In this document: positions 97 through 9,787 of the stretch, piece by piece
Numbering within the stretch: the stretch's first letter is position 1
Layout of the letters: the number at the start of each line of letters is the position of its first letter
Source of the DNA: Verrucomicrobiota bacterium
Lineage (GTDB): Bacteria > Verrucomicrobiota > Verrucomicrobiia > Verrucomicrobiales > DEV007
Direction: 5' to 3'
NCBI GenBank assembly: GCA_020629815.1
Contig: JAHDCN010000074.1
Location: 1-10,926 of the forward strand
DNA length: 10,926 nucleotides
Notes under the pieces: model-generated
Seen by the model: the letters and a program-made list of their open reading frames with translations, nothing else
Database searches by the model: none
What the model was told of the DNA's origin: nothing
Program-made: the position numbers and the translations under genes

Positions 97-1281
97 ATGT
101 CCGTTACCTTTCTCCATACCGCCGACTGGCAAATCGGCAAGCCTTTCGCGCGAGTTCCCGATGACGAAAAGCGGACTTTGATTCGTCAGGCACGTATTGA
201 TGTGATTCAACGTCTCGGTGAACTTGTGGAGGAGAAAAATGCAAAGTTCGTTCTGGTGGCCGGAGACCTATTCGATTCTCCCACTATCAGCAAAGCGGTG
301 GTTTCAGCAACCTGCAGCGCCATCGGTGCGTTAAAAGTGCCCGTCTTGGTCATTCCGGGTAATCATGACTTTGGCGGTCCCGGTTGCCTGTGGGAGCAGG
401 AGTTTTTTCTGAAGGAACAGCAAAGTTTAGCGCCGAATCTTCGGGTTTTATTGGAGCGTGAACCGATTGAGCTCGACGAATGCGTTATTTTTCCGTGCCC
501 GCTGCTACGCAGGCACGAGTCGCGTGATCCCTGTGGCTGGCTGGAAGACTTCGCTGAAGCTGATTTTGATAAGTTTGGTGGCAAGGCGCGGATCGTTTTG
601 GCTCATGGCAGTATTCAGGGATTTGATAGCCGCAGCTCGGAGGAAGGTGCTCCCAACCTGATCAGCCTCGATCGAATTCCACCCTGCTTTGACTACATTG
701 CTCTCGGTGACTGGCATGGAACGAAAGAAGTAGGGCAGAACCGCTGGTATGCCGGAACTCCGGAACAGGATCGTTTTGCGCGCGGCACTGAAAATGATCC
801 CGGGAATACTCTGGCCGTTACGATTCGCGATCGTGATTCTTTATTAGTCGAAAAGATTCAGACTGGTAGGCTTGGCTGGCATTTCATCGATTTCACATTT
901 TCCGATTCGCGATCCATAGAAGATTTGGAAGCGGAAGGAAGCCAACGATTCGCAGCGCGGGCAGGCAAAGATCTCCTGCATCTGACGTTGCGGGGATCAA
1001 TCGATTTTACTACACGCGAACAAATTGACCAATTGGTCGAGTCCTGGAACTCCCGTTTACTTCGAATCAAATTGTTCGATGAAACAACGATCCTTCCGTC
1101 TCAACAGGAGTTGGAAGCATTGGTCAATCGAGCCGGGGACCCTCTGATTGCCCGTGTAGCGGCTAAGTTGTTGCTGCGTAGTGAAAGTCACGATCCCGAA
1201 GAGCAAAAACTCGCTTCGCTGGCTTTGCAGGAGTTGCACCAGGTCGTTGCCCGGGAGAAAGGAGGCGATCCTTTCTCATGA
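97..1281 (+). CDS. SbcD/Mre11-like DNA repair metallophosphoesterase
   Basis: Calcineurin-like phosphoesterase of the SbcD/Mre11 group (COG0420 type), expected to act as a Mn-dependent nuclease on DNA ends with the ATPase encoded next. The motifs fall in family order: HTADWQIG (7-14), GDLFD (56-60), PGNHD (87-91), AHGS (169-172, His170) and GDWHG (204-208). The DxH of motif I is DxQ here (Gln12), and the usual GHxH is GDWH. I recall this variant from a subgroup of bacterial SbcD-like exonucleases, so it is probably functional. After about residue 240 comes a capping or partner-binding region that I cannot assign. The 394 aa length is normal. The ATG at 97 places the phosphoesterase fold directly at the N terminus and has GGGGAG upstream. 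The stop overlaps the next start (ATGA). E. coli SbcD orthology is not claimed; the partner's features point to the YhaO/YhaN-like branch. Confidence 0.9.
   Translation: MSVTFLHTADWQIGKPFARVPDDEKRTLIRQARIDVIQRLGELVEEKNAKFVLVAGDLFDSPTISKAVVSATCSAIGALKVPVLVIPGNHDFGGPGCLWEQEFFLKEQQSLAPNLRVLLEREPIELDECVIFPCPLLRRHESRDPCGWLEDFAEADFDKFGGKARIVLAHGSIQGFDSRSSEEGAPNLISLDRIPPCFDYIALGDWHGTKEVGQNRWYAGTPEQDRFARGTENDPGNTLAVTIRDRDSLLVEKIQTGRLGWHFIDFTFSDSRSIEDLEAEGSQRFAARAGKDLLHLTLRGSIDFTTREQIDQLVESWNSRLLRIKLFDETTILPSQQELEALVNRAGDPLIARVAAKLLLRSESHDPEEQKLASLALQELHQVVAREKGGDPFS
1255..1277 (+). promoter_or_regulatory. Perfect hairpin masking the SD of the SbcC-like gene
   Basis: GAGAAAGGA (1255-1263) is exactly complementary to TCCTTTCTC (1269-1277), with loop GGCGA. 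The stem ends on the base before the ATG at 1278. The only good SD, AGGAGG (1260-1265), starts in the 5' arm and ends in the loop, so the hairpin would hide part of it. Ribosomes finishing the upstream gene (stop 1279-1281) would melt the stem, which suits translational coupling of the two subunits. The structure is seen directly; its regulatory role is inferred. Confidence 0.55.
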
Positions 1282-3974
1282 AACTGATCTCCGTGACAGT
1301 TCGAAACTATCGGATTCACAAGGAGGTGAACATCCGTTTCGATTCCAGTCTCAATCTGGTAGGCGGTGAGAATGAGACGGGAAAAAGCACACTAACGGAA
1401 GCGATCCACCGGGTTTTGTTTTTAAAGTCGAAACAAACGGGAGTGTTGCAGGCTTCGATGATTTCGAATCGGCATCCCGGACATCCTGAGGTGGAGCTGG
1501 AATTCCAGTCCGGAGATCGTCGATACCGGGTAGCGAAGCGTTTTTCCGGCGCGAGCGGAACCACCTCACTGACTTGCGAAGGGGAAACGGCATTGACTGG
1601 CCCTGAAGCGGAGGAGCGGCTTGCTCAGGTGCTGGGTATTGATACAGCCGCGCAGTCGCGAATGACTCCCAATCTGCTCGCTACGCGTTGGAGTCATCTT
1701 TGGGTTTGGCAAGGTTCGGGATGGAATGATCCTTCAGAAGAAGCCACGCGGGAACAGGATTCTCTGCTCTCGCGCCTAAAGGATCAAGGTGGCGGTGGTG
1801 CCATGCAGTCTGAGCTGGATGGTTCGGTTTCTTCACTCATCGCTGACCTGCATGCGGGCAACTACACTGCCAACGGGTCAATCAAAGCACATTCGCCGCT
1901 ACAGAAAGCCCAACAGGAAATTGAGGAAGCAAGGGAGTATGCCACAAGATGCCAGGCTGAATACAATGAGCTTTCGGACGCTGTTTTGGCGTTTCAACGA
2001 GCAGAGAAGACGATTTCTGAAAGTGACCGGCAATTAAAGAAAAATGATTCCGACTCTTCCATTGCGAAGCAGAAACTATCCGGAACCAATGAACTGGAAA
2101 GTAGAATTCGATTACAGGATTCTGCCTTTCAAGCGGCCGAAAGAGAGTTCCGAATTTTACGAGAATCCGATACCAACCTGGCAGATCTGCAAACACAGAT
2201 TTCGCGATTGAGCGAACAGTTGGATCTCGAACAGAAGGATCTGAACCGTCTGGCCGACGCACGCGATCTGCGAAAAGAGAAACTTGGTGGAGTCGGTAGA
2301 ACCAATGACCATCTCGAACAAAAATTGCGGGATGCAGCCGACAAGAAAGAGCTGGCTGCTAACTACGTTCGGTTATTGGAAGTCTCGGCTCGGAATGACG
2401 AGATTTCGCGTCAGATCAGTGAGCTCACTGAAATCGAGGAGGGCTACAAGCTAAAACAAAGAGAGCTGGCAAGATTACCGGAGGTGACAGCAGAAGATCT
2501 GGAAAGATTGCAGAGAATTGAGAGCGACCTGGGGGAAGCTCGCGCTCTATTGGCTGCGATGGGTGCTAGGATTACTGTTGTCGAAACACAGGAAGCCGTT
2601 TCGATCGATGGCGAAGCTCTTTCTCCAGGTAGAGAAGCACGGGTTGATGAAGATGCTGTGATTTCTATTGGCGAAGCGACTAAGCTTCAGATTTCTCCGG
2701 GTGGCGGAACCTCGCTGGCGGAAGCCAGGGAACGTCAGCAGGAACTGAGTGCCCAAAAACAGAACTATCTATCGGGATTGGGCGTTGCCGATCTGGAAGC
2801 TGCCCGCAAATCACTTTCCGGCCGACAGATTTTGGAGACCGAGTTAGCCTCTATTCGAGCCACATTGAAGGGGCGGGACCTTTCGGCCTTCCAACGCGAA
2901 AAGGAAGGGATTCTGCAGGATTTGGAAGCTGCCAGAGCAGCGGTGGCCCGGCGTACAGACTTATTGACTGGCATTGCCCTGCCTGAGCCGTCTTCACTTT
3001 CCGAAGCCAGAGAATTGCTGGAAAAGAGCACTCTTTCTTTTGAGAAAGCGGAGCGAGATCAACGTGAATCGAAGAGCGAGCGAAACTCACTGCAACAACT
3101 GTTCGAGCAGGCAGAGGAAAAGTGGACGGGGCAAAAGCAACGTTGCGATGAACTCATCCGCAATCTCGAAGAGCGCAAAACCCGGGCTGGAGTTTTTGAA
3201 GAAAGTCATGGTCGCGCATCGGATCGAGCACAGAAGCTCGAAAAGCTGCGGAAGGCGGTTGGCGATGCCAAAACTGAACTGGAGAAGAGCCAACGTGAGC
3301 TTGCTGAGCTGCAGCCGGATCAACTGAAAAGCGATCTGGTGCGGTTTGATCGTGTCTCAAACGAGATGACACGCCTCCGGGATGAAGCGAGAGAGGAGCG
3401 GGCAGTAGCCAGAGAACAATTACGACGCGACGGCTCACGTGACCTTCGTGAGTTAGTAGAGGAAGCAAATGCGAGACTGGAAAAAGCCGAAGAACACTTT
3501 GTTGCCGAGGAGCGCAAGTCACGCGCAGTTCGCCTTCTGAAAGACTTGTTTTTCGAAGAACAACAGGAATTGGCTGATCAGTTCACAGGTCCATTAGTGG
3601 AACGAATTTCCGGCTATCTCGAATGCATTTTCGGCGTAGGTGCCACGGCATCCGTGGAGATGAATGAGAAAGGCTTTGGAGGGCTGAAACTCGTCCGGAA
3701 CGGGGAGACCTTTGAGTTTGATTCACTGAGTGGTGGAACCAGAGAACAGGCAGCAGCTGCTGTCCGGCTGGCGCTGGCAGAGATTCTGGCTGATCGCCAT
3801 GGCGGCAGCTTACCGATCGTGTTTGACGACGCGTTTGCTAATTCCGATCCCGGTCGAATCGAATCGCTCCAAAGAATGCTCGACCTTGGAGCTCGGAGAG
3901 GTCTGCAAGTAATTGTCCTCACTTGCGACCCAACCCGCTACGCCAGCCTTGGTGCACGAACAACCGCGCTTTAG
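1278..3974 (+). CDS. SbcC/Rad50-like (YhaN-type) coiled-coil ATPase
   Basis: SMC-like ATPase expected to form a complex with the upstream nuclease and gate its access to DNA ends. The N-terminal half-domain carries Walker A GGENETGKST (29-38). The C-terminal half has the ABC signature LSGGTREQ (817-824), Walker B IVFDDAF (about 847-853), the D-loop-like NSDP and a final strand VIVLTCD. Residues about 200-425 and 480-770 are Glu/Lys/Arg/Gln-rich with heptad-like spacing, as in long antiparallel coiled coils. No CxxC zinc hook is present anywhere. The middle (about 430-475) is instead a short beta-like, Gly-rich stretch (ITVVETQEAVSIDGE onward). The SGGTREQ signature resembles YhaN-type proteins more than E. 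coli SbcC, and at 898 aa it is shorter than SbcC (about 1,050). The start is set by the ATGA overlap and AGGAGG 12 bases upstream. Function as a DNA-end-processing ATPase is inferred from the family and the partner. Confidence 0.88.
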   Translation: MKLISVTVRNYRIHKEVNIRFDSSLNLVGGENETGKSTLTEAIHRVLFLKSKQTGVLQASMISNRHPGHPEVELEFQSGDRRYRVAKRFSGASGTTSLTCEGETALTGPEAEERLAQVLGIDTAAQSRMTPNLLATRWSHLWVWQGSGWNDPSEEATREQDSLLSRLKDQGGGGAMQSELDGSVSSLIADLHAGNYTANGSIKAHSPLQKAQQEIEEAREYATRCQAEYNELSDAVLAFQRAEKTISESDRQLKKNDSDSSIAKQKLSGTNELESRIRLQDSAFQAAEREFRILRESDTNLADLQTQISRLSEQLDLEQKDLNRLADARDLRKEKLGGVGRTNDHLEQKLRDAADKKELAANYVRLLEVSARNDEISRQISELTEIEEGYKLKQRELARLPEVTAEDLERLQRIESDLGEARALLAAMGARITVVETQEAVSIDGEALSPGREARVDEDAVISIGEATKLQISPGGGTSLAEARERQQELSAQKQNYLSGLGVADLEAARKSLSGRQILETELASIRATLKGRDLSAFQREKEGILQDLEAARAAVARRTDLLTGIALPEPSSLSEARELLEKSTLSFEKAERDQRESKSERNSLQQLFEQAEEKWTGQKQRCDELIRNLEERKTRAGVFEESHGRASDRAQKLEKLRKAVGDAKTELEKSQRELAELQPDQLKSDLVRFDRVSNEMTRLRDEAREERAVAREQLRRDGSRDLRELVEEANARLEKAEEHFVAEERKSRAVRLLKDLFFEEQQELADQFTGPLVERISGYLECIFGVGATASVEMNEKGFGGLKLVRNGETFEFDSLSGGTREQAAAAVRLALAEILADRHGGSLPIVFDDAFANSDPGRIESLQRMLDLGARRGLQVIVLTCDPTRYASLGARTTAL

Positions 3975-4002: not shown

Positions 4003-5205
4003 CTACTCCTCGCCTCGAAGAGCATTGAGGATGTAATCGCTGGGGCGGAAGTCCTCAATAATCACATGCTCTTCGTCGCCACGGTACAAACGCACCTGCT
4101 TGATATTGAAGTTGGGCGTTTTGTGAGGCGCAAACAGGATATCGTCGTGTGTCGAGTTCTCGTGTTTCTTGAACATCTCCGGCACGATGTCACCGCCAAG
4201 ATGATCATCGCGACCTGTCGCCAAGTGACAGGTTCCCAGAACTTTCTCATCCTGAATGTCAGCCCCGGATACGGGTAGCACCTGTGTGCCGAATCCAAGT
4301 TCCCCAAGAGTCCCTGTCATCGGATCGGCTGCCAAGCGCTGATTATGATCATCGATGGTGTCTTGATCACCTTCGATCAAGGTAGAACGAACGATGTTAC
4401 GGTTCTCCACGTCTAAGAGCCCAAGTGTGCCGTCCTCATATTTCATGGGGAACTGTCCATTCGCATCCAATGGGACGAAATAGACCTCTCCGGCTGGAAG
4501 GTTCGCGACGTCAGGAGTCTTTCCTTTGCAGAGACCATGCGATTTTTGGGCCTCCTGCCCGTCCAGACCAAGCCAGGAGGTAAGGATGGTTCCGTCTTCC
4601 AGCTCGAAATCGATTTCGACAGAGTCGGCTTTGGTCATCGCAAGACGCATCTTTTCCGCGTCGGAGCTTACCTCGTCGTAATCCACGGAAAGCCCGGATT
4701 TCAAAATGACATCATTGAGACCGTGGAGCGTTGCGCCACGGAAACCAAACTCTTTGCACTTTGCCGTGAGCGGTGCCGTGGCAGAAAAGGTCGAGATACA
4801 GAATATCAGGTCGTAGTTGGGATAGATGTCTTTATCGAGGCTCAGCTCATTGCCTTCAACGTCGTAGCACTCATCCTTCATGTCGAGGTTAGATCCCCAA
4901 GTCATGGGATATGCAAAAACCTCACCGCCTGTCATACCCAGTTCTTCCATGGCGCCATTCTGAAGACCTTCGTAGAAAACTTCATAGGCTTTCTGTTGGA
5001 TTTCGTGTCCCTCCTCTTTCAGATACTGATGGCCTTTCATCAGGCTCATATCTTCGAGATCAATCAAGATGCAGCAGCGACATCCCTTGGTCGGCTCAAA
5101 TACTTTGCCGAGCAGGTTCTCGAGGCTGAACTGCGGGAAGCGGCGCTTCTCCGGGTTGAGAACTACATCGAGAGAGAGGGTAGAAACTGAGGATGATAAA
5201 GACAT
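4003..5205 (-). CDS. Diverged M29-family aminopeptidase (AmpT/AmpS-like)
   Basis: Leucyl-aminopeptidase-like protein of the M29 (aminopeptidase T) family, predicted to be cytoplasmic since no signal peptide is visible. Metal-site motifs occur in family order: PAGEV (Glu240), GELGFG (Glu302), GTCHLATG (His327) and THDD (His353, Asp355). These match the Glu, Glu, His, His and Asp ligands known for T. thermophilus AmpT. The active-site Tyr, expected seven residues after the first His, is absent: Asp334 stands there, in GRDDHLGG. The N-terminal domain contains a Cys cluster (GCRCC) where the family usually has a plain strand. The canonical paralogue lies 108 bp upstream on the same strand. The start at 5205 has no SD and no in-frame ATG nearby. 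It could be an active peptidase of altered specificity or a non-peptidase paralogue. Confidence 0.75.
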   Translation of the reverse strand: MSLSSSVSTLSLDVVLNPEKRRFPQFSLENLLGKVFEPTKGCRCCILIDLEDMSLMKGHQYLKEEGHEIQQKAYEVFYEGLQNGAMEELGMTGGEVFAYPMTWGSNLDMKDECYDVEGNELSLDKDIYPNYDLIFCISTFSATAPLTAKCKEFGFRGATLHGLNDVILKSGLSVDYDEVSSDAEKMRLAMTKADSVEIDFELEDGTILTSWLGLDGQEAQKSHGLCKGKTPDVANLPAGEVYFVPLDANGQFPMKYEDGTLGLLDVENRNIVRSTLIEGDQDTIDDHNQRLAADPMTGTLGELGFGTQVLPVSGADIQDEKVLGTCHLATGRDDHLGGDIVPEMFKKHENSTHDDILFAPHKTPNFNIKQVRLYRGDEEHVIIEDFRPSDYILNALRGEE

Positions 5206-5313: not shown

Positions 5314-6411
5314 TTAGTAGTTGAGGCTGTGCAGGCTTTTTGCCACGAATTGGCCATTTTTCCGGATCAGTTTTCCATCGAACCAAATCTCTCCTCCGCC
5401 ATAGTCACGTCTCTGGATGTTGACTAAGTCCCAGTGCACTGCACTTCGGTTACCGTTGTCAGCGACTTCGTAGGCTTGACCGGGCGTGAAGTGGAAACTA
5501 CCTGCGATCTTTTCATCGAACAGAATGTCACGCATTGGCTCCTTGATCTCCGGATTAAAACCAATCGCGAACTCACCGATGTAGCGAGCACCGGCATCGG
5601 TATCGAGAATTTTGTTCAGAGCCTTGGTATTGTTCGAGGTAGCATTGACAATTTTCCCTTTTTCGAACTCGAGACAAACATTGTCGAAAGCGACGCCCTG
5701 ATAAATCGAAGGTGCGTTGTAGGTAATGATGCCCTCTACGGAGTTTTTGACCGGTGCGGTGAAACATTCACCATCGGGAATATTATGCTCACCGCCGCAG
5801 GCAAGGGCGGGGATACCTTTTTTGCTGAAGCGAAGATCGGTTCCTTTGCCTTTGATGTGAACCTCCTCGGTTTCGGTCATCAGTTTCTCCAAGGCATTCA
5901 TACCCCGCTTGAGCTTCCGATACTCCAGTAGACAGACCCGAAAGTAAAAATCTTCAAATGCCTCGGTCGACATCCCTGCGCTTTGAGCCATCGAAGGATT
6001 TGGCCAGCGAAGGACGCACCAGCGGGTATTGTTGACACGCTCATTCAAAACCGGGCGCATTTTCTCAGCCACCATTTGCATGTTGGCACCGGGAATATCA
6101 GAAAGTTCGTTGATGTTGTTGGAACCACGAATCGCAATATAGCAATCCATGGTTTTCATCTGATACATGGCATGTTTTGCGATCGCCTTGTATTGGTCTT
6201 CCGTCGCCTTCATGCCGAGTTCACGACTGATCCTGGCTTGGTTTACATTTACGAATGGCGTTGCTTTAGCCTTTCGAACCTCTCGAATAAGAGCGATGCC
6301 GACTTCTTCCGGAACATCAAAGAGATCTATCAGGACGTTTTCCCCGGCTTTTACGGCAGTGGAGTAGCGAACCAGTTGGCGGGCGAGTTGATCGATTCGA
6401 GAGTCGTGCAT
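5314..6411 (-). CDS. M29-family metalloaminopeptidase (AmpS/AmpT-like)
   Basis: Aminopeptidase of the M29 family, which removes N-terminal residues from peptides using a two-metal site. All expected ligands can be seen: PDGEC (Glu215), GEFAIG (Glu280), SFHFTPG (His307), Tyr314 seven residues later, and HWD (His326, Asp328). The N-terminal domain begins with a helix ([13 protein letters not shown]) and the strand GENVLIDL, as usual in the family. At 365 aa it is a little shorter than AmpT (about 410). No signal peptide is visible, so it is probably cytoplasmic and recycles peptides. The start is supported by GGAGG and AAGGA upstream of the ATG. It is divergent from the RfaE2-PurN fusion gene, with 62 bp between starts, and probably heads a transcript that continues into the diverged paralogue. 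Substrate preference cannot be read from sequence. Confidence 0.88.
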
Positions 6412-6473: not shown

Positions 6474-7541
6474 ATGCCGAATGGCTTTATATCATCATCG
6501 GAAGAAATCCGTGAATTGCGTGATTCCCTCGACGCGCAAGGCAGGAAGCTGATTCTTACCAATGGAGTTTTTGATCTGCTTCACGTGGGACATGTTCGCT
6601 ATCTCAATGAAGCGAAGTCGCTGGGAGACTGCCTGGTGGTCGCAATCAACGCTGATGAATCAGTTCGAGAGCTGAAGGGCCCGAATCGGCCGGTGTATTC
6701 GGCCGAAGAGAGGGCGGAGATTCTTTGTGCGCTCGAGGCCGTAGACCGCGTAGTAGTTTTCTCAGAGCGAAGGGCCAGCCGCGTCATCGAGGCGATCCAT
6801 CCTCACATTTACACCAAAGGGGGCGACTATACTCCCGATAGCTTGATTGATGAGGAAAAGCAGCTCCTTGATCGGCTCGGAGTGGAAATTCGAATCCTTT
6901 CTCTCGTCGCTGGCAAGTCAACTAGCGCGACCGTTTCGAAAATGGAGGCTACCGAAAGTGAGGTGCCGAAAATCGCGATTCTTGGATCGGGCAAAGGCTC
7001 CAATGCATCGGCAATAATTGAAGCAATTGAAGATGAAAAACTCGCGGCAGAGGTAGCCGTCGTCCTTTCAGATGAACCAGACGCGGGAATTTTAGAGATT
7101 GCCAGACAGAGTGGAATTGCGGCCATACCCATCGATCCCGGCACAGAGAAAGCGGGACAATTAACCGATGCAGCGATCAAAGAAATTCAGGATCGGTTGG
7201 AGGCAGCGAACGTTGAGTTGGTGGTTCTGGCTGGTTTTATGCGGATCATTCGGGAACCGCTATTGTCGGCGTTTCCAGAGAGAATTGTAAATATCCACCC
7301 CAGCCTGCTACCGAAGTTTCCGGGCTTACAAGCCTGTCAGAAGGCCCTCGATGCTGGAGAAATGGAATCCGGATGCACCATTCATTTGGTGGATGCAGGT
7401 GTAGACACGGGAAAAATTCTACGTCAGGAAGTAGTTCCGATTCAAGATGGAGACACAGTGGAGTCCCTGCAGGCAAGAATCCAGATGTCAGAGCACCAGG
7501 CTTATCCTGAGGTAATCGCGGAATTACTCCTCCGCGATTGA
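6474..7541 (+). CDS. rfaE2-purN: Fusion: heptose-1-phosphate adenylyltransferase (RfaE2) + GAR formyltransferase (PurN)
   Basis: Two complete enzyme domains lie in one frame. Residues 1-157 are a cytidylyltransferase-fold domain of the RfaE2/HldE C-terminal type, which transfers AMP from ATP to heptose 1-phosphate to make ADP-heptose for LPS core. Its marks are TNGVFDLLHVGH (29-40, HxGH at 37-40), NADESVRELKGP, KGGDYTPDSL and GKSTSAT (147-153). After a linker of about 8 residues, 166-355 are PurN, which formylates GAR with 10-formyl-THF in purine synthesis. It shows GSGKGSN (171-177), VNIHPSLLPKFPG with Asn273 and His275, and Asp311. These match the E. coli PurN triad N106/H108/D144 with identical 38-residue spacing from Asn to Asp, so both halves look catalytic. 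Met157 at the junction could be an internal start for free PurN, but no SD precedes it. The main ATG has no SD either. The 3' end overlaps the convergent prepilin gene by 18 bases. The pairing of pathways is unexpected. Confidence 0.9.
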   Translation: MPNGFISSSEEIRELRDSLDAQGRKLILTNGVFDLLHVGHVRYLNEAKSLGDCLVVAINADESVRELKGPNRPVYSAEERAEILCALEAVDRVVVFSERRASRVIEAIHPHIYTKGGDYTPDSLIDEEKQLLDRLGVEIRILSLVAGKSTSATVSKMEATESEVPKIAILGSGKGSNASAIIEAIEDEKLAAEVAVVLSDEPDAGILEIARQSGIAAIPIDPGTEKAGQLTDAAIKEIQDRLEAANVELVVLAGFMRIIREPLLSAFPERIVNIHPSLLPKFPGLQACQKALDAGEMESGCTIHLVDAGVDTGKILRQEVVPIQDGDTVESLQARIQMSEHQAYPEVIAELLLRD

Positions 7542-8697: not shown

Positions 8698-9354
8698 TTA
8701 GCCGTATACAGTTGGGTCTTCGAGCCCTGCGAGAGCAAAGGCTTCAATCCGCTCTACGCAAGTGCCACATTTGCCGCAGTGAAGCTCATCGCCTTTGTAG
8801 CAAGACCAGGTTCGGGACCAATCTATTTTCAGTGCGTCGCCACGGCTGGCGATATCTTCTTTGCGCATGTCGATAAACGGGCGCAGGACTTCCAGTTTTT
8901 CATAAGTCCCGGAAGAAATGGCTTCAGACATCGGGCGCATGAAGTCTTCCCGACAATCAGGATAAATGGCGTGGTCACCCGAGTGGGCTGCAATTACCAA
9001 ACCGGCAGCGCCGCGACTTTCCGCAAAGCCAGCGGCGATGGAGAGCAAGATGCCGTTCCGAAACGGTACGACAGTTTGCTTCATATTCTCTGCTTCGTAG
9101 TGGCCCTCGGGAATCTCGCCGCCACTTTGCAACAGGTGGCTGGCAAAATGTTCGTTCATGAAAGGCAGTGCAATCACTTCGTGAGAAATTCCCAGGGCAT
9201 CGCAGTGTTCTTTCGCGAAAGGAATCTCTTTGTGGTTGTGCTTCGAGCCATAATCAAAGCTCAGTCCGGCAACTACATCGTGTCCTTCATCGACCGCTTG
9301 ATACAATGCGGTAACGGAATCCATTCCGCCACTTACCAGCACGACCACTTTCAT
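8698..9354 (-). CDS. queC: 7-cyano-7-deazaguanine (preQ0) synthase QueC
   Basis: QueC converts 7-carboxy-7-deazaguanine to preQ0 using ATP and ammonia, in queuosine biosynthesis. The PP-loop motif SGGMDS starts 8 residues after the chosen Met. A C-terminal zinc site has four cysteines in C-x7-C-x2-C-x2-C (in CYKGDELHCGKCGTC), close to the E. coli pattern. Family blocks VVPFRNGILLSIA and AAHSGDHAIYPDCR are also present. I chose the ATG at 9354 because QueC proteins usually begin about 7 residues before SGG. An upstream in-frame ATG at 9378 would add eight residues and overlap queF by 17 bases. Neither has a clear SD. The 218 aa length is normal. It lies 7 bases after queF and 3 bases before the ATPase gene, so these three are likely one transcript. 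Confidence 0.95.
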   Translation of the reverse strand: MKVVVLVSGGMDSVTALYQAVDEGHDVVAGLSFDYGSKHNHKEIPFAKEHCDALGISHEVIALPFMNEHFASHLLQSGGEIPEGHYEAENMKQTVVPFRNGILLSIAAGFAESRGAAGLVIAAHSGDHAIYPDCREDFMRPMSEAISSGTYEKLEVLRPFIDMRKEDIASRGDALKIDWSRTWSCYKGDELHCGKCGTCVERIEAFALAGLEDPTVYG

Positions 9355-9361
9355 GCAGCGA

Positions 9362-9787
9362 TCAGGCAGAAAACTCATCCGGGTACTGAGCCCGAGCGGT
9401 CAGTCGAATGCCACCCCGGGGAGAAAATTTCCCCTCAACCGACATCGAACGAGGTTGGCAGGCAGAGGATAGATCATCAAGGATTCGGTTCACAATGTCC
9501 TCATTGAACGAGGCCAGATTGCGGTACGAAGCCAGGTAAAATTTCAACGATTTGGTTTCGATACAATACTCGTCGGGAACATAGGTGATCAACAGGTGCG
9601 CGGTATCAGGCTGACCTGTCACCGGACAAACCGAGCAAAACTCAGGGTAATCCAGCTCGATGGTATAACTTCGCTGCGCATTTCGATTGGGAAAAACCTC
9701 CAGCTTTGCCTCGTCGGGATGCGACGGCAGACGGTTCTCACTGTGACCCAACAGGGTTAGCTCATCGACCAAAGAGGGTTTACTCAT
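9362..9787 (-). CDS. queF: NADPH-dependent preQ0 reductase QueF (short, type I)
   Basis: QueF reduces the nitrile of preQ0 to the amine preQ1, the base later inserted into GUN-anticodon tRNAs. At 141 aa it is the short, single-domain form (B. subtilis type). The nucleophile Cys54 and Asp61 lie in CPVTGQPD (54-61), the NADPH-binding block is ETKSLKFYLASYRN (77-90), and GKFSPRGGI follows near the C terminus. In the substrate-binding HE motif (His96-Glu97 in B. subtilis) the glutamate is kept (Glu96) but the histidine is Asn95. The ATG at 9787 is fixed by an upstream in-frame stop, and no SD is seen. queC follows on the same strand, so substrate maker and user are co-expressed. Three copies of a 14-base repeat lie across the start of this gene. 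Confidence 0.94.
   Translation of the reverse strand: MSKPSLVDELTLLGHSENRLPSHPDEAKLEVFPNRNAQRSYTIELDYPEFCSVCPVTGQPDTAHLLITYVPDEYCIETKSLKFYLASYRNLASFNEDIVNRILDDLSSACQPRSMSVEGKFSPRGGIRLTARAQYPDEFSA

Follow-up and report, generated by a model that had tools for sequence, protein, structure and literature searches.

A fused rfaE2–purN gene in Verrucomicrobiota with a likely origin in a tandem gene pair

We analysed a 10,926-nucleotide stretch of DNA from a member of the Verrucomicrobiota (the window), in which an open reading frame at positions 6474–7541 on the plus strand runs from an ATG start to a stop codon without internal stops and translates into a protein of 355 amino acids. Pfam places a CTP_transf_like domain at residues 28–137 (E = 4.2e-17) and a Formyl_trans_N domain at residues 166–348 (E = 4.3e-52). 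The reading of this frame, the Pfam and NCBIfam matches and the relatives of the protein identify a fused rfaE2–purN gene; a preliminary description, which had proposed a single chain of RfaE2 and PurN, named both domains correctly. On one side lies a divergent M29-type aminopeptidase gene (5314–6411, minus strand), recognized by domain search and with a homologue at 16 of the 41 loci compared, fused and PurN-only alike; on the other, a convergent pseudopilin-like open reading frame overlaps the end of the fused gene by 18 nt. Elsewhere in the window, an apparent SbcD/SbcC-type pair (97–3974, plus strand) combines a metallophosphatase with a long SMC-like ATPase, the two frames overlapping by 4 nt, and QueC and QueF genes of 7-deazaguanine/queuosine synthesis adjoin at 8698–9787 (minus strand). 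A 400-residue frame at 4003–5205 (minus strand) has no Pfam or NCBIfam match and only a faint similarity, over 108 residues (E = 0.01), to the neighbouring M29-type peptidase.

The first half of the protein (approximately residues 10–158, 6501–6947, plus strand), which includes a predicted helix at residues 150–158, is an RfaE2/HldC-type adenylyltransferase domain according to Pfam, NCBIfam, AlphaFold2 and Foldseek. Foldseek matches it to HldC (PDB 5xf2; TM-score by target 0.86, 44% identity). The score against the NCBIfam model for RfaE2 (TIGR02199) is 165.6 bits, about 16 bits short of the curated cut-off of 181.5, and we therefore call the domain HldC-type, not a certified member of the HldC/RfaE2 family. 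We aligned 62 fused proteins (57 of 120 listed search matches plus 5 loci), and in all 62 the residues T29-N30-G31, H37, G39 and H40 of the HxGH nucleotidyltransferase motif (residues 37–40, 6582–6593, plus strand), N59 and D61, K68-G69 and K115-G116-G117 are invariant. The last of these leads into a likewise invariant GGDY motif (residues 116–119, 6819–6830, plus strand), with K115 directly before it, and corresponds to the KGG substrate motif of HldC. A study of HldC lists the motifs TNG, NSD, KG, EXTP and KGG (PMC7993394); in the window's protein NSD reads NAD, and EXTP is absent, its place taken by ERRA. EXTP is kept in neither the fused nor the unfused rows of the class in our alignment, and the HldE row (L060) reads EDTP. 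Because the TIGR02199 cut-off is missed and EXTP is not kept, the sugar substrate of the first half could differ from that of HldC.

The second half (residues 165–352, 6966–7529, plus strand) scores 198.4 bits against the PurN model TIGR00639, above the curated cut-off of 150.1, and Foldseek returns GAR transformylases (3auf, TM-score by target 0.84, 46% identity), so that by family membership it qualifies as a predicted GAR transformylase. N273, H275 and D311 (7290–7406, plus strand, first to last residue) are invariant in the 62 aligned fused proteins, as are G173, N177 and E340, with S176 kept in 58. We take these residues to be the Asn-His-Asp catalytic triad, the phosphate loop (GSG.GSN) and the GAR-contacting Glu, the triad spacing of +2/+36 being that of N106/H108/D144 in Escherichia coli. 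The catalytic motifs on which the preliminary description relied, HxGH and the triad, are thus preserved throughout the alignment.

Sugar formyltransferases have the same fold, and joining one to a nucleotide-sugar enzyme would make metabolic sense; on this alternative, the second half would be a sugar N-formyltransferase, of ArnA or VioF type, whose substrate is the nucleotide sugar that the first half makes. We disfavour this identity as very improbable. The TIGR00639 score compares with 40.7 bits for the ArnA model and 24.9 bits for the dTDP-sugar formyltransferase model, both far under their cut-offs; no further PurN was found in the window's genome; and PurN is retained where the heptose genes are missing (below). 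PurT scores above its cut-off in 38 of 56 genomes of the order, the window's own among them, so PurN may be partly redundant and its flux need not be essential.

Between the halves lies a variable linker (approximately residues 159–164, 6948–6965, plus strand) within a stretch, residues 153–164, at which mean identity among the 62 aligned proteins falls to 20%, compared with 74% and 62% for the two halves. An AlphaFold2 model built from the 62 fused proteins has two well-formed domains (mean pLDDT 89.9, pTM 0.69), with pLDDT dropping to 63 in the block of residues 141–150 and 56 in the block 151–160; the helix at 150–158 is predicted at low confidence. Given the pTM and the low confidence across residues 141–160, the relative placement of the domains in the model is unsure and offers no confident interface. 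The suggestion that Met157 might serve as a start for separate PurN production finds no support, and we rejected it: the column holds Met in 16 and Leu in 32 of 62 rows, and no Shine–Dalgarno-like run was seen by eye in the 40 nt upstream. Any Met at all occurs in 30 of the 110 junctions scored, after 10 of the 120 listed proteins that fell outside the pattern were dropped.

Of 56 genomes sampled among relatives in the window's order, 40 carry the fusion, far more than chance would give: 39 as an unbroken match and one (G050) as two matches within one 435-residue frame. By family code, it occurs in 28 of 35 genomes of f1, 3 of 5 of f3, 5 of 6 of f4, 1 of 1 of f5, 3 of 3 of f6 and 0 of 6 of f2. 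Eleven of the other 16 genomes carry PurN alone (G007, G008, G022, G043, G055 and the six of f2, in which an RfaE2-type domain is found elsewhere, in a kinase–adenylyltransferase frame). G053 has rfaE2 and purN as two tandem genes; G025 has PurN and, on another contig, an unlinked RfaE2 of 42% identity; G016 has a PurN fragment; and G003 and G017, which are 53% and 52% complete, yielded no match of PurN grade. In a class-level sample, 7 of 188 genomes are fused, one of which (G218) lies outside the order. Across the phylum, 13 of 288 genomes match at E = 1e-62, a cut-off that detects only one-piece or in-frame matches, and all 13 belong to the window's class.

The draft genome from which the window comes is fragmented into 599 contigs, and two genes merged by misassembly or a frameshift would give the same appearance. 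We reject this explanation, to which we give next to no credence, because 40 of 56 relatives carry the identical architecture; both Pfam domains are, moreover, present in every one of the best 120 of 7,549 matching proteins, one of which is the window's own. The preliminary description had named such a merger, or separate intact copies of both genes elsewhere together with decay of the fused copy in relatives, as grounds for abandoning the fusion. Neither applies: we found no second purN or rfaE2 in the window's genome, which is 69% complete and holds two other formyltransferase-family genes (30–35% identical, unclassified). G031 has another C-terminal PurN fragment at the edge of a contig (L120, G031:C166), perhaps from a strain mixture or a duplicate. 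We found no description of an HldC–PurN fusion in the titles and abstract openings of the open-access papers retrieved, and the words purine, heptose and formyltransferase are absent from the main text of a survey of gene fusions (PMC4921024).

Outside the fusion, the two genes are often neighbours. Among 106 unfused genomes of the class in which both rfaE2 and purN were placed (a count that leaves out G050, since it is fused), 41 carry them in tandem and 65 apart. In 34 of the 106, rfaE2 directly precedes a co-oriented purN, the homologous stretches being no more than 120 nt apart; a further 7 fall within 500 nt. The 34 close pairs span 14 family codes, with 12 from family f12; such close pairing is far above chance for genomes of thousands of genes, part of it being shared descent. 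We read 15 unfused junctions, at which the distances are upper bounds because purN was taken to begin at the start codon nearest upstream of its domain: 5 overlap, by 4 nt (G095, G147 and G086) or 13 nt (G205 and G166), 4 have gaps of 2–6 nt (G053, G208, G213 and G077) and the other 6 have gaps of 24–33 nt. Nine of the 15 pairs lie in one frame and are split by stop codon(s), although these nine were noticed because they are in frame; in G053, the genes are 2 nt apart in another frame.

With nine junctions already in frame, fusion would be mutationally easy, which favours a neutral event in which a stop codon or frame was lost in a tight operon and the product was tolerated without benefit. 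The five overlapping junctions are in keeping with a selected physical or regulatory unit: HldC and PurN would assemble into a complex, or each would regulate the other, initially as two co-translated chains and later as one. Spacing of −8 to +10 nt is regarded as predictive of coupled translation in a study in which gene pairs at this spacing encode heteromeric complexes in 30.4% of cases in E. coli and 45.2% in H. volcanii, compared with 6.8% and 5.6% for pairs more than 20 nt apart (PMC10666635).

We built trees of PurN alone (65 rows), PurN within the order (51 rows), RfaE2 alone (45 rows) and both joined (43 rows); all are rooted at the midpoint, and gain and loss were therefore read from nesting and gene neighbourhood. 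The four agree in outline. The joined tree groups 28 fused rows together with G053 (SH-aLRT 97) and places the fused G218 beside the unfused G179, G205, G166 and G174. Forcing every fusion, G218 among them, into a single group is rejected (AU p = 0.0012, in a test that was not blind, the place of G218 having already been seen), whereas a single group without G218 is not (AU p = 0.186). At least two fusion events are therefore likely from the sequences compared, with that of G218 apparently an independent second one. The fusion of the order nests among unfused tandem pairs, and the position of G053 inside the fused group suggests that it is a re-split fusion. The single-gene trees are weakly resolved: on the 65-row PurN tree the fused label needs 8 changes, and in the order PurN tree the pairing of the fused G038 with G086, an unfused genome, at 95/97 would imply either a transfer or a third fusion. 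That the changes ran from pair to fusion and then to splitting or loss is the direction we infer. The preliminary description had considered that a neutral fusion became fixed in one lineage; 'one lineage' proves too narrow, because unfused tandem pairs are common in the class and the second fusion is apparently independent. Homologous frames also lie downstream of purN in families f4 and f45 (L099/L100/L106/L101 in G050, G053, G166 and G218), with one frame between purN and the homologue in G166; the copy in G053 is a UvrD-type helicase.

The window's genome has HldA-like (316 bits) and GmhA-like (184.5 bits) genes, both under strict cut-offs, and a GmhB-like HAD phosphatase (107 bits) above the cut-off of its family, to which other phosphatases belong as well. 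Among 35 scored genomes of at least 90% completeness (one further genome was undetermined), 32 have both the RfaE2 half and HldA, 3 have neither and none has one alone. The PurN-only G007 and G022 (sisters), G008, G043 and G055 each stand beside fused relatives in the tree, the pairing of G055 with G036 being strongly supported and the other placements less so in the order PurN tree. In these five genomes, there was no HldA match of 160 bits and no GmhA match above 42 bits; GmhB-like genes are missing from all but G055 (G022 is 63% and G055 86% complete). The co-absence of HldA and GmhA links the first half to heptose synthesis. On the tree, absence of the heptose half beside a retained PurN takes 4 changes or more; three phylogenetically independent pairs fall on supported branches, concordant in 2.8 on average and opposed in 0 (p = 0.25). 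No RfaE2 remnant was detected at the six loci of G007, G008, G022, G025, G043 and G055 (tblastn best E = 2.1). The PurN-only genes of G007, G008 and G022 share the neighbourhood of several fused genes, flanked by an aminopeptidase gene on one side and by M42 peptidase and gyrase genes on the other; in G022 one extra frame intervenes on the M42 peptidase/gyrase side, and the window's gene shares the aminopeptidase side only.

Exceptions occur among fused genomes. HldA and GmhA were not found in G027, G038 and G045 (79–83% complete), nor GmhB in G027; in G032 (92% complete) HldA is partial and neither GmhA nor GmhB has a good match; GmhA was not found in G012 (84% complete), nor GmhB in G002 (75% complete). 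Heptosyltransferase-family genes, counted in 22 chosen genomes, number 1 in G007, 1 in G008, 0 in G022, 1 in G043, 6 in G055, 1 in the fused G032 and 2 in the window's genome. HldD epimerase scores above its cut-off in none of 33 genomes of genus g1 or 5 of family f3; most g1 genomes do have HldA and GmhA, and the pathway there may end with ADP-D,D-heptose, not the L,D form. The genes hldA and gmhA are adjacent in L123 (G010:C8 33278–34863), with a NusG-like gene just upstream, and by their coordinates are neighbours in many further genomes. PurN does not depend on the other half, since PurN-only genes stand in lineages without the heptose kinase, and the fusion seems to have come apart again where the sugar pathway was lost.

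Our main reading, to which we assign a probability of roughly three in four, is that the bifunctional HldC–PurN protein is genuine, that it arose from an already tandem rfaE2–purN pair, and again independently in G218, and that its halves carry out separate reactions. Because no aligned member departs from the key residues of either half, two activities on one chain would be the plain reading. The first half would perform the HldC step, converting heptose-1-phosphate and ATP into ADP-heptose, with a separate HldA kinase, and the second would convert GAR and formyl-THF into formyl-GAR. That both halves are active we infer, as we do the exact sugar substrate of the first and the selective reason for the fusion. 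A tandem, tightly spaced pair would have been joined in the ancestry of the order, and once more in that of G218. Purines derive from ribose-5-phosphate via PRPP. Heptose derives from sedoheptulose-7-phosphate (PMC10221265). The two pathways have no common intermediate, yet both draw on pentose-phosphate sugars. Channelling between the halves is unlikely for lack of a shared intermediate: the substrates would differ and no hand-over would be needed. The first effect of a single chain would instead be obligate 1:1 co-production of the two enzymes.

Whether joining brought a benefit divides the two explanations raised above. Recurrent loss and splitting and a variable linker speak for neutrality; persistence across five family codes of the order with invariant key residues in both halves, and two origins, speak against it, and we regard a neutral fusion as quite possible, if somewhat short of an even chance. 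A selected unit, which might for example balance the use of sedoheptulose-7-phosphate for heptose against that of ribose-5-phosphate/PRPP for purines, would accord with tandem pairs in 14 family codes, overlapping junctions, the enrichment of close spacing for complexes and the two fusions. The C-terminal helix of HldC reportedly changes greatly upon ligand binding (PMC7993394), and PurN appears to be grafted onto this same helix. Control of competing pathways and complex assembly are among the reasons for fusion given in the survey cited above, which also notes unexpected links between disparate pathways (PMC4921024). Against a selected unit stand the 65 genomes with the genes apart, the repeated absence of the heptose half where PurN is kept, the apparent re-splitting in G053, the unlinked RfaE2 of G025, the unconserved linker and the missing confident interface; we hold it as a tentative possibility. 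The idea in the preliminary description that the fusion may couple LPS precursor and purine supply is likewise possible on the present evidence. A bolder version, which we consider unlikely, is that HldC and PurN are partners across the class, co-translated as a pair and on two occasions joined into one chain, so that the rate at which ADP-heptose forms is linked to purine synthesis, perhaps in a complex in which PurN feels the movement of the HldC helix.

The fusion is real and old, marks most of the order and has a clear likely origin. It provides a case of a gene pair that became a fusion and was split again, between two pathways without a common intermediate and with natural controls for each step. 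It is also an annotation trap: among the 120 listed matches, most of which are nameless, the only name is 'phosphoribosylglycinamide formyltransferase', so that genomes with the fusion may seem to lack the heptose step. If the pairing is selected, it would represent an unrecognized link between an envelope sugar and purine synthesis.

Compared with known systems, the fusion is a new architecture made of known enzymes, ordinary in its parts and of interest for their repeated pairing. The bifunctional heptose kinase–adenylyltransferase HldE (RfaE) has an adenylyltransferase domain homologous to the first half (NF008454 matches over profile positions 324–473 of 475) and would catalyse the same step, but the partner is the HldA kinase in HldE and PurN in the fusion, where most genomes have a separate HldA-type gene; Pfam and NCBIfam find no N-terminal kinase domain in the fused chain, which sets it apart from HldE (PRK11316). 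HldC of Burkholderia pseudomallei (PDB 5X9Q/5XF2), a single-domain heptose-1-phosphate adenylyltransferase, shares the fold and the TNG, KG and KGG motifs, whereas in the window's fusion EXTP is replaced (ERRA) and PurN is attached. Stand-alone PurN (PDB 3AUF, 3P9X and 1CDE) has in common with the second half the whole domain, the triad and a score above the curated cut-off, the N-terminal HldC-type domain being confined to the fusion. Human GART, trifunctional according to the PDB and arranged as GARS–AIRS–GART, likewise holds a PurN-type domain inside a multifunctional chain, but the enzymes joined in GART all belong to one pathway.
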